Part shown: one piece after another, positions 18,028 through 24,407 of the stretch
How positions within the stretch are numbered: position 1 is the stretch's first letter
How the letters are laid out: the number at the start of each line of letters is the position of its first letter
Assembly (NCBI RefSeq): GCF_001644645.1
Contig: NZ_CP011390.1
Location: forward strand, 4,729,501-4,793,500
Reading direction: 5' to 3'
DNA: 64,000 bases
Source: Flavisolibacter tropicus
GTDB taxonomy: Bacteria; Bacteroidota; Bacteroidia; Chitinophagales; Chitinophagaceae
Made by a program: the position numbers and the translations under genes
Notes under the pieces: generated by a model
The model's database searches: none
The model's input: the letters and a program-made list of their open reading frames with translations, nothing else
What the model was told of the DNA's origin: nothing

Positions 18028-18900
18028 ATGGGATTTACAATTAAAGAATTGGAGACATTGTCGGGTATCAAAGCCCACACCATTCGTATTTGGGAGCAAC
18101 GTTACCATTTTTTAAAGCCTACGCGTACTTCTACCAACATACGCACCTATAGTAATGAGGAGCTCAAAACCATCCTTACAGTTGCCCTACTCAACAAACA
18201 TGGATATAAGATCTCCCGTATTGATACCATGCCGCCCGAGCAGCGCAACAAGGAAGTGATTAATTTATCTTCTGAAGAAGCGCAGAATGAATATTTAGTG
18301 AATGAGCTGATTAGTGCAATGATAGATCTGGATATTTATGGGTATGAAACACTCTTGAATGATTGTATTCAACGGGTGGGCATTGAAGCCACTATTAAAA
18401 CCATCATTTTCTCGTTTTTGGAAAAGATTGGAATTCTTTGGCAAACAGGCCATATCAACCCGGCTCATGAACATATTGTTTCTAACATAATTCGTCAGAA
18501 GCTGGTGGTAGCTATTGAAGGATTGCCATTCCCTGAGCAGCAAAAGCCATTGTTGCTATTGTTGTTACCAGAAGATGAGCATCATGAGTTAGGGCTTTTG
18601 TTCGTTTATTACCTGCTCAAGCAAAGAGGTTTGCCGGTTATCTATTTAGGCGCCAATGTGCCCTTAAAAGATGCGCAATATGTAATTAGTCTAAAACAGC
18701 CAGATCATATATATCTTCATTTAACGTCATCTCCTTCAAAGGCCAGTTTCCAAAAATACCTGAAAGGCCTAGCGGCTTCCAATTCGTCTAGTAAAGTAGT
18801 GCTTTCTGGCCATATTGCCGAGAGTTTTCCAGGCATAAATGGGCAGTTACTACCGCTGCATACGTTGTCTCAAGCTATTACTTATATATCTTCTCTGTAA
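18028..18900 (+). CDS. CarH/LitR-type B12-dependent photoreceptor repressor
   Basis: A 290-residue protein. Residues 1-70 form a MerR-type winged helix (FTIKELETLSGIKAHTIRIWEQRY). Residues about 90-165 match the helical cobalamin-capping domain and carry the W-x9-EH motif (W138, E148, H149) seen in CarH proteins. Residues 175-290 form the Rossmann cobalamin-binding domain with an E-x-H-x-x-G motif (E184, H186, G189), where H186 would be the lower axial ligand. Known relatives bind adenosylcobalamin in the dark, tetramerise on DNA and release it when light breaks the Co-C bond. The residue after W138 is Gln139, where Thermus CarH has the histidine that ligates cobalt after light. The adjoining carotenoid genes fit the role of photoprotective regulator. 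Confidence 0.9.
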   Translation: MGFTIKELETLSGIKAHTIRIWEQRYHFLKPTRTSTNIRTYSNEELKTILTVALLNKHGYKISRIDTMPPEQRNKEVINLSSEEAQNEYLVNELISAMIDLDIYGYETLLNDCIQRVGIEATIKTIIFSFLEKIGILWQTGHINPAHEHIVSNIIRQKLVVAIEGLPFPEQQKPLLLLLLPEDEHHELGLLFVYYLLKQRGLPVIYLGANVPLKDAQYVISLKQPDHIYLHLTSSPSKASFQKYLKGLAASNSSSKVVLSGHIAESFPGINGQLLPLHTLSQAITYISSL

Positions 18901-19030
18901 TGACTGCCTGATAGTGTCTTTATTCTTGCGTTTAGCTGATATAAAGGGTGGCAAACCACGTATGGCTACCTAATTCCTCTCGGTCATATTGTTGTACTAA
19001 TCTTTATTAATACATCTAAATCATTCTATT

Positions 19031-19107
19031 AAGCCGTATATAAGCCGTCTCTTTATAGGGGCAGCTTATAGGCGGTTTATATACGGCTTATATACAGGTT
19101 ATATACG
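19031..19107. repeat. 11-bp-period repeat array, possible CarH operator
   Basis: Seven consecutive 11-bp units fill 19031-19107. The last four (starting 19064, 19075, 19086, 19097) share GNTTATATACG, the first reading GCTTATAGGCG. The first two units carry the complement of the same word, so 19031-19047 and 19073-19089 form an inverted repeat with one mismatch. Thermus CarH binds tandem 11-bp direct repeats, so this may be the operator of the adjacent regulator. It could also be a member of the short-period intergenic repeats seen elsewhere in the window (58883-58981). Confidence 0.6.
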
Positions 19108-19244
19108 GGATATTGCTGAAAAATGAGATGAGTATAGGGGATTTACAAGCCTGCTGCCTTTTCTAATTTTCTTGTATCAAGCCTTATTTATAGGTAGCCT
19201 GTATGCTCATTTTCTAAGAATAACTAAGGACTGAATAATAGTTG

Positions 19245-19268
19245 AGCCAATGCTATGATGGCTTTTTT
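19245..19268 (+). terminator. Weak terminator-like hairpin before the sigma gene
   Basis: AGCCA at 19245-19249 pairs with TGGCT at 19259-19263 and is followed by a run of T. The stem is only 5 bp, so termination would be weak. It could end the CarH-like transcript or act as an attenuator for anything read through from the repeat array. Confidence 0.35.
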
Positions 19269-19286
19269 GTTTAAATAAATATTTTA

Positions 19287-22136: not shown

Positions 22137-22137
22137 G

Positions 22138-22689
22138 ATGGAGAAAAATAATGTCATACTAGTAGATGAGCAAGACCAGCCGATTGGTACCATGGAAAAG
22201 ATGGAAGCGCACAGGCTTGGTGTGTTACACCGTGCCTTTAGTGTATTCATCTTTGATAAGAATGGGCGTATGCTGCTACAACAACGGGCTGCACAAAAGT
22301 ATCATGGTGGACTGCTGTGGAGCAATACCTGTTGCAGCCATCCTTATCCTGACGAAGCTACTACTGCAGCTGCACACCGTCGGCTAACCGAAGAGTTGGG
22401 ATTTGATACGGCTTTGACAGAGATCTTTTCATTTACTTATAAAGCGGAAGTGGAGAATCATTTGATTGAGCACGAGTTTGATCATGTGTTTGCGGGAGAA
22501 TATGAAGGAGATGTAAAGATCAATCCGGATGAAGTAGCCGATTATTGTTATACGTCTATGAATGAAATACAAGCGGCTCTACAATCGAAGCCAGCTAAGT
22601 TTACTTCCTGGTTTCGCATTGTGTTTCCACAAATAGAAGCATGGTGGCAACAACATTACGCTCAACCCAAACCAAAAGAAATAGTGTAG
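22138..22689 (+). CDS. idi: Isopentenyl-diphosphate delta-isomerase, type I
   Basis: A 183-residue Nudix-fold enzyme. SNTCCSHPYP carries the catalytic Cys and metal His, and AAHRRLTEELGF is the Nudix box; FDHVFAGEYEGD holds later metal ligands. It interconverts isopentenyl and dimethylallyl diphosphate and so sets the supply of prenyl precursors. Length matches bacterial type I enzymes. It lies 1 bp after crtB and 1 bp before crtZ, so precursor supply is co-regulated with the pigment genes. Confidence 0.95.
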   Translation: MEKNNVILVDEQDQPIGTMEKMEAHRLGVLHRAFSVFIFDKNGRMLLQQRAAQKYHGGLLWSNTCCSHPYPDEATTAAAHRRLTEELGFDTALTEIFSFTYKAEVENHLIEHEFDHVFAGEYEGDVKINPDEVADYCYTSMNEIQAALQSKPAKFTSWFRIVFPQIEAWWQQHYAQPKPKEIV

Positions 22690-22690
22690 C

Positions 22691-23194
22691 ATGGTAGCAA
22701 TCTATTTTATAGGAGTTTTAGTGGGTACATTTTTATTAATGGAGGGCGTTACCTGGTTAACCCACAAGTATGTCATGCATGGTTTTTTGTGGTATCTCCA
22801 TCGCGATCACCATCAAAAAGAACCAGGTTTTTTTGAAAAGAACGATTGGTTCTTTGTCATTTTTGCTATACCCAGTATGCTGCTGATTTTGTTTGGTACT
22901 TTACACCAGTCCTGGTGGATGCAGGCTATAGGTTTTGGTATTATGGCGTATGGAGCAGCCTACTTCTTGGTGCATGATGTAATAATACATCAACGGTTTA
23001 AGTGGTTTACACGCAGCCGTAATACCTATGTGCGTGCTATTCGCTGGGCACACAAGATGCATCACAAACATTTGGATAAGCAGGAGGGCGAGAGTTTTGG
23101 TATGCTTTACGTGCATAAAAAATATTGGGAAAAAGTGCGTAAGGATAGACAACTAGGTGGCAAGAAAGTATCTTATGCTCCTGATGTGGACTGA
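22691..23194 (+). CDS. crtZ: Beta-carotene 3-hydroxylase
   Basis: A 167-residue membrane protein of the fatty-acid hydroxylase/sterol desaturase group. Histidine clusters for the di-iron site are visible: HKYVMHGFLWYLHRDHHQ, HDVIIHQRF and AHKMHHKH. Hydrophobic segments lie at about residues 3-22, 54-72 and 76-94. It adds hydroxyl groups to both rings of beta-carotene to give zeaxanthin by way of beta-cryptoxanthin. The length is usual for CrtZ. It follows idi by 1 bp and precedes the cyclase gene by 61 bp. Confidence 0.93.
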   Translation: MVAIYFIGVLVGTFLLMEGVTWLTHKYVMHGFLWYLHRDHHQKEPGFFEKNDWFFVIFAIPSMLLILFGTLHQSWWMQAIGFGIMAYGAAYFLVHDVIIHQRFKWFTRSRNTYVRAIRWAHKMHHKHLDKQEGESFGMLYVHKKYWEKVRKDRQLGGKKVSYAPDVD

Positions 23195-23255
23195 AGTGGT
23201 TGTTTTCACTCTTATCAACTTAAATTACTAATACCGGTTATTAATTTTTGTCTTC

Positions 23256-24407
23256 TTGAATTCATCTGAATCATACGATTATATAATTGCTGGTGCTGGC
23301 TGTGCAGGGTTGAGCCTGGCAGTGCATCTGATTCAATCTAGAAAGTTTACTGATAAAAAGATCTTGCTTGTAGATCAGCAGACTAAAAACCGGAATGATC
23401 GCACTTGGTGTTTTTGGGAGAAAGGAACAGGACTTTTCGAATCGATTGTTTACAAGAAGTGGCAGCAGTTGACCTTTCATGCTGAGGAATGTAGTAAGAC
23501 ATTGGATATCGCTCCCTATACGTATAAGCTGATCCGTGGTATTGACTTTTATAATTATTGCTTACAGCAAATAAAGTCGCATCCTAATTTCAAATATCTG
23601 CAAGCGCCAATTGAAAGCGTTTTTAGTGATGAAAAAGGGGCAGGTATACTGGTTGGTGACAAATTAATAAGAAGTCAATTTGTATTTAACAGCATCTTAT
23701 TTACTAAGCCGCAGTTGTCAGCCAGGCAGTGTTGGCTGTTGCAACATTTTAAAGGTTGGTATATTAAAACCGAGCAGCCAGTCTTTAATTCAGCTATAGG
23801 CACGTTAATGGATTTTAGGACCTCACAGGAACAAGGGGCTACCTTTTTTTATGTACTGCCTTTTTCACCTACAGAAGCCTTAGTAGAATACACGTTATTT
23901 TCTGATAAGCTGTTAGAATCGCAAATTTATGATGCAGCCTTGCGGCAATACATTTCTATTAAAGTAGGCATTACGGATTATCAAATAATAGAAGCAGAGT
24001 ATGGTGTAATACCTATGACTAATTATAAGTTCTCTAAAAGACAAGGAAACATTGTTAACATAGGAACTGCCGGTGGACAAACAAAAGCATCCAGCGGATA
24101 CACCTTCCAGTTTATTCAGAAAAAGAGTAGGGCGCTAGTAGATAGTTTAATACAGTATGGGCATCCCTTTAATGCGCCATCTGATAGCTCTCGTTTTCAT
24201 TTTTACGACAGTGTGTTATTAAACATTCTGCATAAGCGGACACTGCAGGGAGCAGCTATTTTTACAGAATTATTTAAGAAGAACAAAGCAAGTAAAGTGT
24301 TTGCTTTTTTAGATAATGAAACTACACTTGCGGATGAGTTGAAGATCATCAGTACATTACCTACATTACCTTTTACCAAGGCGGCTTTACAGCATCTAGC
24401 ATTTTAA
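23256..24407 (+). CDS. crtY: Lycopene beta-cyclase
   Basis: A 383-residue flavoprotein. It starts at TTG 23256 (reading MNSSESYDYIIAGAGCAGLS), the next residues being the FAD/NAD-binding loop. NDRTWCFWEKG is the conserved cyclase motif, and the segment with GVIPMTN and NIGTAGGQTKASSGYTF is the typical C-terminal substrate/FAD region. It cyclises both ends of lycopene to beta-carotene. The 61-bp spacer from crtZ is the only notable gap in the operon. Its last 4 bp overlap the end of the convergent thioredoxin gene. With CrtZ present and no ketolase, the expected product is zeaxanthin. Confidence 0.92.
   Translation: MNSSESYDYIIAGAGCAGLSLAVHLIQSRKFTDKKILLVDQQTKNRNDRTWCFWEKGTGLFESIVYKKWQQLTFHAEECSKTLDIAPYTYKLIRGIDFYNYCLQQIKSHPNFKYLQAPIESVFSDEKGAGILVGDKLIRSQFVFNSILFTKPQLSARQCWLLQHFKGWYIKTEQPVFNSAIGTLMDFRTSQEQGATFFYVLPFSPTEALVEYTLFSDKLLESQIYDAALRQYISIKVGITDYQIIEAEYGVIPMTNYKFSKRQGNIVNIGTAGGQTKASSGYTFQFIQKKSRALVDSLIQYGHPFNAPSDSSRFHFYDSVLLNILHKRTLQGAAIFTELFKKNKASKVFAFLDNETTLADELKIISTLPTLPFTKAALQHLAF

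Follow-up and report, generated by a model that had tools for sequence, protein, structure and literature searches.

A predicted CarH/LitR-type B12 photoreceptor-repressor and its probable inverted-repeat operators at a sigma factor and carotenoid gene locus of Flavisolibacter tropicus

A regulator gene, a sigma factor gene and carotenoid genes in one locus

We analysed a stretch of 64,000 nucleotides of Flavisolibacter tropicus DNA (hereafter the window; positions 4729501-4793500 of a genome consisting of one contig of 5.94 Mb), in which a gene for a MerR-type regulator resembling the vitamin B12-dependent photoreceptors CarH and LitR precedes a gene for an extracytoplasmic function (ECF) sigma factor and a set of carotenoid genes. 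The original prediction had listed seven genes, i.e. carH-like, ECF sigma, crtI, crtB, idi, crtZ and crtY, and all of them are present on the + strand within 18028-24407 of the window. The carH-like gene (18028..18900) encodes a protein of 290 amino acids with a MerR helix-turn-helix (HTH) domain, a four-helix bundle and a B12-binding Rossmann domain. It is followed by the sigma factor gene sigE (19335..19820), whose start was set by homology with relatives, an in-frame ATG being present also at 19323. The sigE product matches Pfam Sigma70_r2 and Sigma70_r4_2 and scores 69.4 with TIGR02937 (cut-off 42.9); regions 2 and 4 both being over the family cut-off assigns it to the ECF sigma factors.

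The carotenoid genes start with crtI (19817..21295), encoding a phytoene desaturase with matches to NCBIfam CrtID (756.9, cut-off 640) and Pfam Amino_oxidase, followed by crtB (21297..22136; phytoene synthase family, Pfam SQS_PSY), idi (22138..22689; isopentenyl-diphosphate isomerase, Pfam NUDIX and an NCBIfam model over its cut-off), crtZ (22691..23194) and crtY (23256..24407; lycopene cyclase, Pfam Lycopene_cycl). The NCBIfam lycopene-cyclase and phytoene-synthase models are matched by the crtY and crtB products with scores under the cut-offs. For crtZ, NCBIfam gave no match and Pfam none at E <= 0.001, with nothing meaningful when the limit was raised to E <= 10; its assignment as beta-carotene hydroxylase follows the names of the closest homologues, many of which carry the source name beta-carotene 3-hydroxylase. 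Two polyprenyl synthase genes elsewhere in the genome could supply geranylgeranyl diphosphate (GGPP). Zeaxanthin, proposed earlier as the product, is plausible, but a 3,4-desaturated carotenoid may be formed instead, since the crtI-encoded protein also scores above the threshold of a model that bears the name bifunctional phytoene desaturase/3,4-desaturase.

The genes are tightly packed. The sigE stop and the crtI start overlap by 4 nt as TTGA, in agreement with the earlier description, and the successive genes after crtI are separated by +1, +1, +1 and +61 nt, so that one CarH-controlled promoter can serve sigE as well as the crt genes. No anti-sigma gene adjoins sigE within the window, which makes it probable that the sigma factor is regulated through its synthesis.

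The regulator has the domain layout of class I CarH/LitR proteins

Both cobalamin motifs described for the regulator can be read directly in its sequence, i.e. W-x9-EH (W138/E148/H149) and the E-x-H-x-x-G histidine (H186). The Pfam models MerR_1 (51.8 bits) and B12-binding_2 (33.6 bits) both exceed their cut-offs. Its best sequence matches in the Protein Data Bank (PDB) are the Thermus CarH/LitR entries 3whp (5.7e-27) and 5c8d (6.7e-27), and a Foldseek search with its AlphaFold model (mean pLDDT 87.2) returned 5c8d, Thermus CarH, as the top match (E 1.6e-15). The combination of MerR HTH domain, four-helix bundle and B12-binding Rossmann domain is that of class I CarH/LitR; in class II LitR the B12 domain is reduced to the four-helix part, and the Rossmann domain kept by the window regulator places it outside that class. 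Among named relatives, Paracnuella aquatica (65%) comes closest by its regulator, followed by Flavisolibacter ginsengisoli (60%).

For comparison within the family we fetched 80 regions, with preference for the highest-scoring matches; 8 of them are loci of a second, more distant copy. Together with the window this gave 81 loci, some of them cut by contig ends. The ligand residues are highly conserved across the 59 family loci in which carH is followed by sigE: the Trp is present in 58, the Glu in 56, the His of the EH pair in 57 and the lower-ligand His in 57. In a second CarH-like protein (G000:C1:580183-580965; L092), with 35% identity, W-x9-EH is kept and ExHxxP replaces ExHxxG; the eight second-copy carH loci fetched (L092-L099) showed no adjoining crt or sigE match.

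The gene order recurs in the family

A regulator homologue is present in 93 of 147 family genomes, counting second copies, and carH is followed by sigE in 59/81 family loci. Among these 59, crtI comes next in 52, crtI-crtB-idi in 45, and 24 loci, counting the window, have exactly its order of seven genes, which the original prediction had proposed to look for in other family members. This recurrence suggests the arrangement in the window being more than chance. Six of the 59 loci have carH-sigE-idi with no crt gene at the locus. Fourteen loci (including L034, L035 and L036) show the window order with a second CrtI-like gene (24-28% identity to CrtI) inserted after idi and before crtZ, suggesting that the carotenoid finally made there is a different one. 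At locus L106 (G020) a photolyase gene lies within a carH-crtI-crtB-idi cluster.

Paired inverted repeats lie over the sigE promoter

Two palindromes lie over the sigE promoter in the window: a distal one, TGTTTAA-N16-TTAAACA (19268..19297), and a proximal one, TGTTTAA-N17-TTAAACA (19302..19332), both predicted CarH operators and the only exact copies of this pattern in the genome (reversed pattern 0). The consensus of the -7 element of Bacteroidota promoters is TAnnTTTG. A -7-like box, TAACTTTA (19306..19313, + strand), is covered by the left half of the proximal operator, whose right half lies about at the expected transcription start. The octamer at this place reads TAnnTT[TC][GA] in 53/58 loci and exactly TAnnTTTG in 23/58. 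The position of the operator fits repression, since it includes the -7-like box together with the bases immediately following.

The palindromes are conserved in the carH-sigE gaps of the family in the form GTTTAA-N16/17-TTAAAC. Allowing two mismatches and N14..19, at least one site is present in 58/59 gaps compared to 29% of Markov-simulated gaps and at least two sites in 39/59 compared to 5.8%; a mismatch-free site is present in 52/59. An operator starts 32 to 41 bp ahead of the sigE start in 55/59 loci and one 86 to 96 bp ahead in 38/59. With one mismatch allowed, TGTTTAA-N15..18-TTAAACA occurs 121 times over the 81 loci (1.0 Mb), i.e. 92 times between carH and sigE, 21 times within 160 bp upstream of carH (20/81 loci), three times between carH and crtI, twice at a relocated sigE (L043) and only three times elsewhere. 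In a set of named genomes, which in part are the same as those of the family set, sigE is present in 36/41 loci and has an operator within 130 bp in 35/36.

The link between palindrome and carH holds also at the level of genomes. Exact TGTTTAA-N16/17-TTAAACA sites number 90 in 98 genomes, compared to 18 for the reversed pattern (hand sums), and they occur in 51/64 genomes with a regulator homologue but only in 3/34 without (Fisher p = 6.5e-12, uncorrected for kinship). Furthermore, the operator travels with the regulated unit, being found at the relocated sigE-crtI of L043 and at sigE-crtI apart from carH in L119 and L125, and it is present at crtI or carH in loci that showed no sigE (L084, L105, L109, L110, L127, L129, L130). 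The half-site TAAACA agrees with the TnnACA core of proven CarH sites, the design of CarH operators being reported as plastic (PMC9304148). Taken together, the palindrome pair in front of sigE very probably constitutes a CarH operator.

The two palindromes of the window are 34.5 bp apart from centre to centre, compared to 55-57 bp in 34/37 family loci with two sites; the remaining ones have distances of 34.5, 36.5 and 46.0. A Rayleigh test was run on one value for each lineage (n=10), made up of two medians from the family and one value from each of eight further families; the 46.0 locus and L193 with 133.5 fell outside the cut-offs applied. For assumed periods of 10, 10.5 and 11 bp it gave p = 0.016, 0.03 and 0.07, respectively, so that a helical phasing of the palindromes is no more than suggested.

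Exact palindromes were also observed in other surroundings. In L126 (G005) one precedes a small gene and a gene for photolyase, and in two genera (L124 in G034, L135 in G083) operator-like exact copies lie between genes that by eye are primary-sigma-like and SRPBCC-like.

The module extends to other families of the class

Across the class, 193 of 295 genomes carry a homologue of the regulator, and a Bacteroidota crt cluster with merR and rpoE has been published (PMC8683446); the arrangement is thus not peculiar to one genome. For other families, 40 regions were hand-picked among the better matches, of which 38 were examined after dropping two 100-bp placeholders. The sigE gene adjoins carH in 18/38, and in 17 of these 18 an operator with at most one mismatch lies no more than 114 bp before the sigE match. 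In 6/18, crtI is the next gene. Five of the remaining 12 have other light-related genes after carH-sigE. Four of these five carry a gene for GTP cyclohydrolase I, accompanied in L179 by genes for a short-chain dehydrogenase/reductase (SDR) and photolyase, in L175 by an SDR gene, in L181 by a photolyase gene and in L174 by idi; the fifth, L205, has a photolyase gene. In the other seven none was recognised by eye. In L169 a photolyase gene adjoins carH with no sigE. PhrB and FolE are among the light-inducible genes of the class II LitR system of Pseudomonas putida (PMC9758184), and this regulon together with the folE and photolyase neighbours suggests that the system likely has a light-protection role even where carotenoid genes are not attached.

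A photolyase gene as part of a SigE regulon was considered and not retained: 24/30 photolyase-domain loci of relatives could be placed by a loose word search and showed no shared upstream motif by eye. The genome of F. tropicus itself has no match to the photolyase model PF03441.

Neighbouring B12 genes and a dispersed repeat element

A cobalamin riboswitch (30635..30831, RF00174), the gene for a BtuB-like TonB-dependent B12 receptor behind it (28620..30533; 236.2 bits to TIGR01779, cut-off 599.7) and cobC, encoding alpha-ribazole phosphatase (27897..28499; 173.5 bits, cut-off 162.9), stand in a row on the - strand (27897-30831), 3.5 to 6.4 kb past crtY. This row makes a supply of B12 plausible. 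An adenosyltransferase gene is present in the genome; since such a gene is near universal in the family (96/98 genomes) it says little on the switch. Control of this gene by CarH was considered on the basis of an exact site before it in G058 and rejected as likely chance: 29/30 of the other adenosyltransferase loci could be placed (L162 not), with 0 paired sites and four single half-site words.

The carH-sigE gap of the window further contains a hairpin element of about 93 bp with 11-bp tandem units (19020..19112), which does not belong to the switch. Its 11-bp repeats (19064-19108) were considered as tandem CarH sites and rejected, as the whole hairpin is a dispersed repeat of this genome, found at about ten places with functionally mixed neighbours; in 17 other genomes of the genus it has no match at E <= 0.001. 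In nine distinct copies the right-hand gene runs forward, one copy is spanned by an open frame of 109 amino acids, and by eye stem letters and repeat units seem to covary between copies.

A model for light control and the alternatives

We propose, with a probability of roughly 80%, that a CarH/LitR-type adenosylcobalamin (AdoCbl) photoreceptor-repressor controls a light-protection operon at this locus. In the dark, the AdoCbl-bound regulator would sit on both palindromes, covering the -7 region and the start of a sigE-crtI-crtB-idi-crtZ-crtY transcript and thereby blocking the primary sigma factor. In the light, the Co-C bond would be cleaved, the oligomer would fall apart or loosen and the operator would be freed, resulting in joint synthesis of the sigma factor and the carotenoid enzymes, and SigE would carry the light signal to genes elsewhere. 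We infer AdoCbl binding, the light response, repression, co-transcription and all action of SigE from sequence comparison. Of the B12-dependent light-repressor circuit described in the original prediction, the regulator of the CarH/LitR kind is retained, most likely repressing the neighbouring promoter at which the conserved operator lies; the relay as it was written is not. The chain from sigma factor made to pigment made is not required given the overlap and the short gaps, and the sigma factor of the window need not be a necessary intermediate to pigment but may be a fellow product with the crt enzymes.

Several observations weigh against this model. At the level of the operator, 13/64 genomes with a regulator homologue have no exact site, the window carH has no operator upstream, and L100, with a carH-sigE gap of 26 bp, has no paired site. 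In the F. tropicus genome the short core GTTTAA-N14..19-TTAAAC shows no enrichment (6 compared to 11 reversed, with 2/6 at the sigE promoter), and of 20 regions at exact or near sites away from known carH-sigE loci, 7 are at sigE, crtI or carH and 13 at other genes. The TnnACA half-sites stand as inverted pairs, whereas the CarH operators of Thermus and Bacillus consist of 11-bp direct repeats in tandem. By position counts, only 24/58 loci have the TTTG of a -33 element where it normally stands, 20 to 23 bases ahead of the operator, and the window promoter has none there. At the level of the protein, PF02310 (B12-binding) scores 30.0 bits, slightly below its cut-off of 32.1, and the NCBIfam CarH equivalog 114.9 bits, far below 400, a cut-off which is a name-giving threshold and no defining property of the wider family. 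In VIA-align, photocobilins rank ahead of CarH by less than 1 Z, which is a tie. Among the four light signatures described in the literature, GxxH is altered to DxxH in the regulator of the window, with Gly in 49/59 relatives. Finally, the light-state ligand His132 of Thermus CarH corresponds to Gln139, and a His at this position is present in only 3/59 family loci and 0/38 loci of other families. Neither His132 nor tandem 11-bp repeat operators are defining for the CarH/LitR family.

Of the alternatives, a relay of the LitR/LitS type survives best, though we consider it unlikely. Here the regulator would act on sigE only and SigE would transcribe the crt genes from a separate promoter, as might be expected from the same gene pair in Streptomyces (PMC12705666). 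The six family loci with carH-sigE-idi and no crt gene suggest sigE being valuable by itself, and the sigE-crtI gap is longer than 60 nt in 10/52 loci, with hairpins in some of the gaps. However, sigE and crtI overlap in the window, L032 and L033, the median gap is 24 nt (52 loci), and carH-crtI loci where no sigE was found still bear the operator. In L035 and L040 a stable hairpin followed by a T run lies between sigE and crtI (-16.4 and -28.1 kcal/mol, z -3.8 and -5.3), leaving only some 20-25 nt ahead of the likely crtI start, as if setting the ratio of sigma factor to enzyme. No second promoter motif shared by the printed sigE-crtI gaps was seen by eye, which is a weak test.

The regulator could also sense the B12 level or redox state and not light, the light response having been lost with the photo-ligand His, which is replaced in 56/59 family loci and in all 38 others. 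B12 uptake genes within the same window would suit such a sensor. Photolysis of AdoCbl itself is not known to require a protein His. The neighbourhood is one of light protection, including in some other families photolyase and folE as in the Pseudomonas LitR regulon (PMC9758184). Thermus CarH H132A was reported to stay mostly tetrameric in the light, the same paper citing an earlier report of disassembly (PMC10442372), whereas CtMerR, a B12 MerR protein of Chloracidobacterium with an Arg at this position, monomerises in the light, the position varying in the wider family (PMC11796333). We therefore regard a B12 or redox sensor as improbable. It is very improbable that a different factor binds the palindromes or that they belong to an ECF promoter read by SigE itself, as would fit their position directly before sigE in most loci, since they are also found at carH loci where no sigE was found and since in genomes without a regulator homologue the exact palindrome (3/34) is no commoner than the reversed control (14/98).

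Our data suggest that the predicted light-dependent repressor belongs to a branch of the CarH/LitR kind that is widespread in Bacteroidia and uses inverted repeats as operators. A wider reading, which we put forward tentatively and at less than even odds, is a B12-dependent light-stress system throughout the class Bacteroidia, combining a His132-free CarH branch, helically phased pairs of inverted repeats and an ECF sigma factor relaying light in trans (to carotenoids in the family of the window and to folE, SDR and photolyase in others); the sigma operon would have had its effector genes exchanged between lineages.

Light-dependent pigmentation in Bacteroidota thereby gains a concrete candidate sensor and a predicted binding site. 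For a Chryseobacterium whose carotenoids are induced by light, genes of a car or lit operon were reported as not found, with the identity of the regulator left open (PMC7064467). The CarH-like proteins without His132 form a natural set that is useful for understanding how the light state arises in its absence, and the differing operator geometry is on offer for green-light tools.

Relation to known systems

CarH/LitR switches as such, as well as a Bacteroidota crt cluster with merR and rpoE, are already known (PMC8156234, PMC9304148, PMC12705666, PMC8683446). Among the matches listed from the open-licence PMC literature, subscription papers being outside this scope, none describes a Bacteroidota B12 photoreceptor or its operator, and none deals with the inverted-repeat operator, with the module as it occurs across the class or with the absence of His132 from the branch. 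The Echinicola crt cluster with merR and rpoE shows the same gene company within Bacteroidota; light, B12 and an operator are not part of the passage concerned (PMC8683446). The window regulator shares 18-19% identity with CtMerR (8jbs, 8jbt) in the alignment. Reviews of LitR may also mention homologues in Bacteroidota.

Compared to Thermus thermophilus CarH/LitR (5c8d, 5c8e, 3whp), the window system shares the domain layout, W-x9-EH, the lower-ligand His, the carotenoid locus and an operator overlapping the promoter. Thermus CarH has His132 and three tandem 11-bp direct repeats, whereas the window system has no His132, inverted pairs of sites and an ECF sigma gene heading the operon. With the myxobacterial CarH/CarA systems it has in common the repression, here predicted, of a crt operon and plastic TnnACA operators, inverted repeats being mentioned for M. 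xanthus (PMC9304148); it differs in the operon starting with a sigma gene, in phylum and in spacing. The class II LitR proteins of Pseudomonas (PplR, PmlR2) lack the Rossmann B12 domain kept by the window regulator, while their PhrB/FolE light regulon resembles the genes after carH-sigE in some Bacteroidia families (PMC9758184). In the LitR/LitS system of Streptomyces, a B12-dependent MerR regulator likewise has an ECF sigma gene and crt genes as neighbours. There, activated LitR is described as promoting transcription of litS, and sigma-LitS as serving the crtE promoter (PMC12705666), whereas in the window the crt genes lie inside the sigma operon and the geometry of the sites fits repression.

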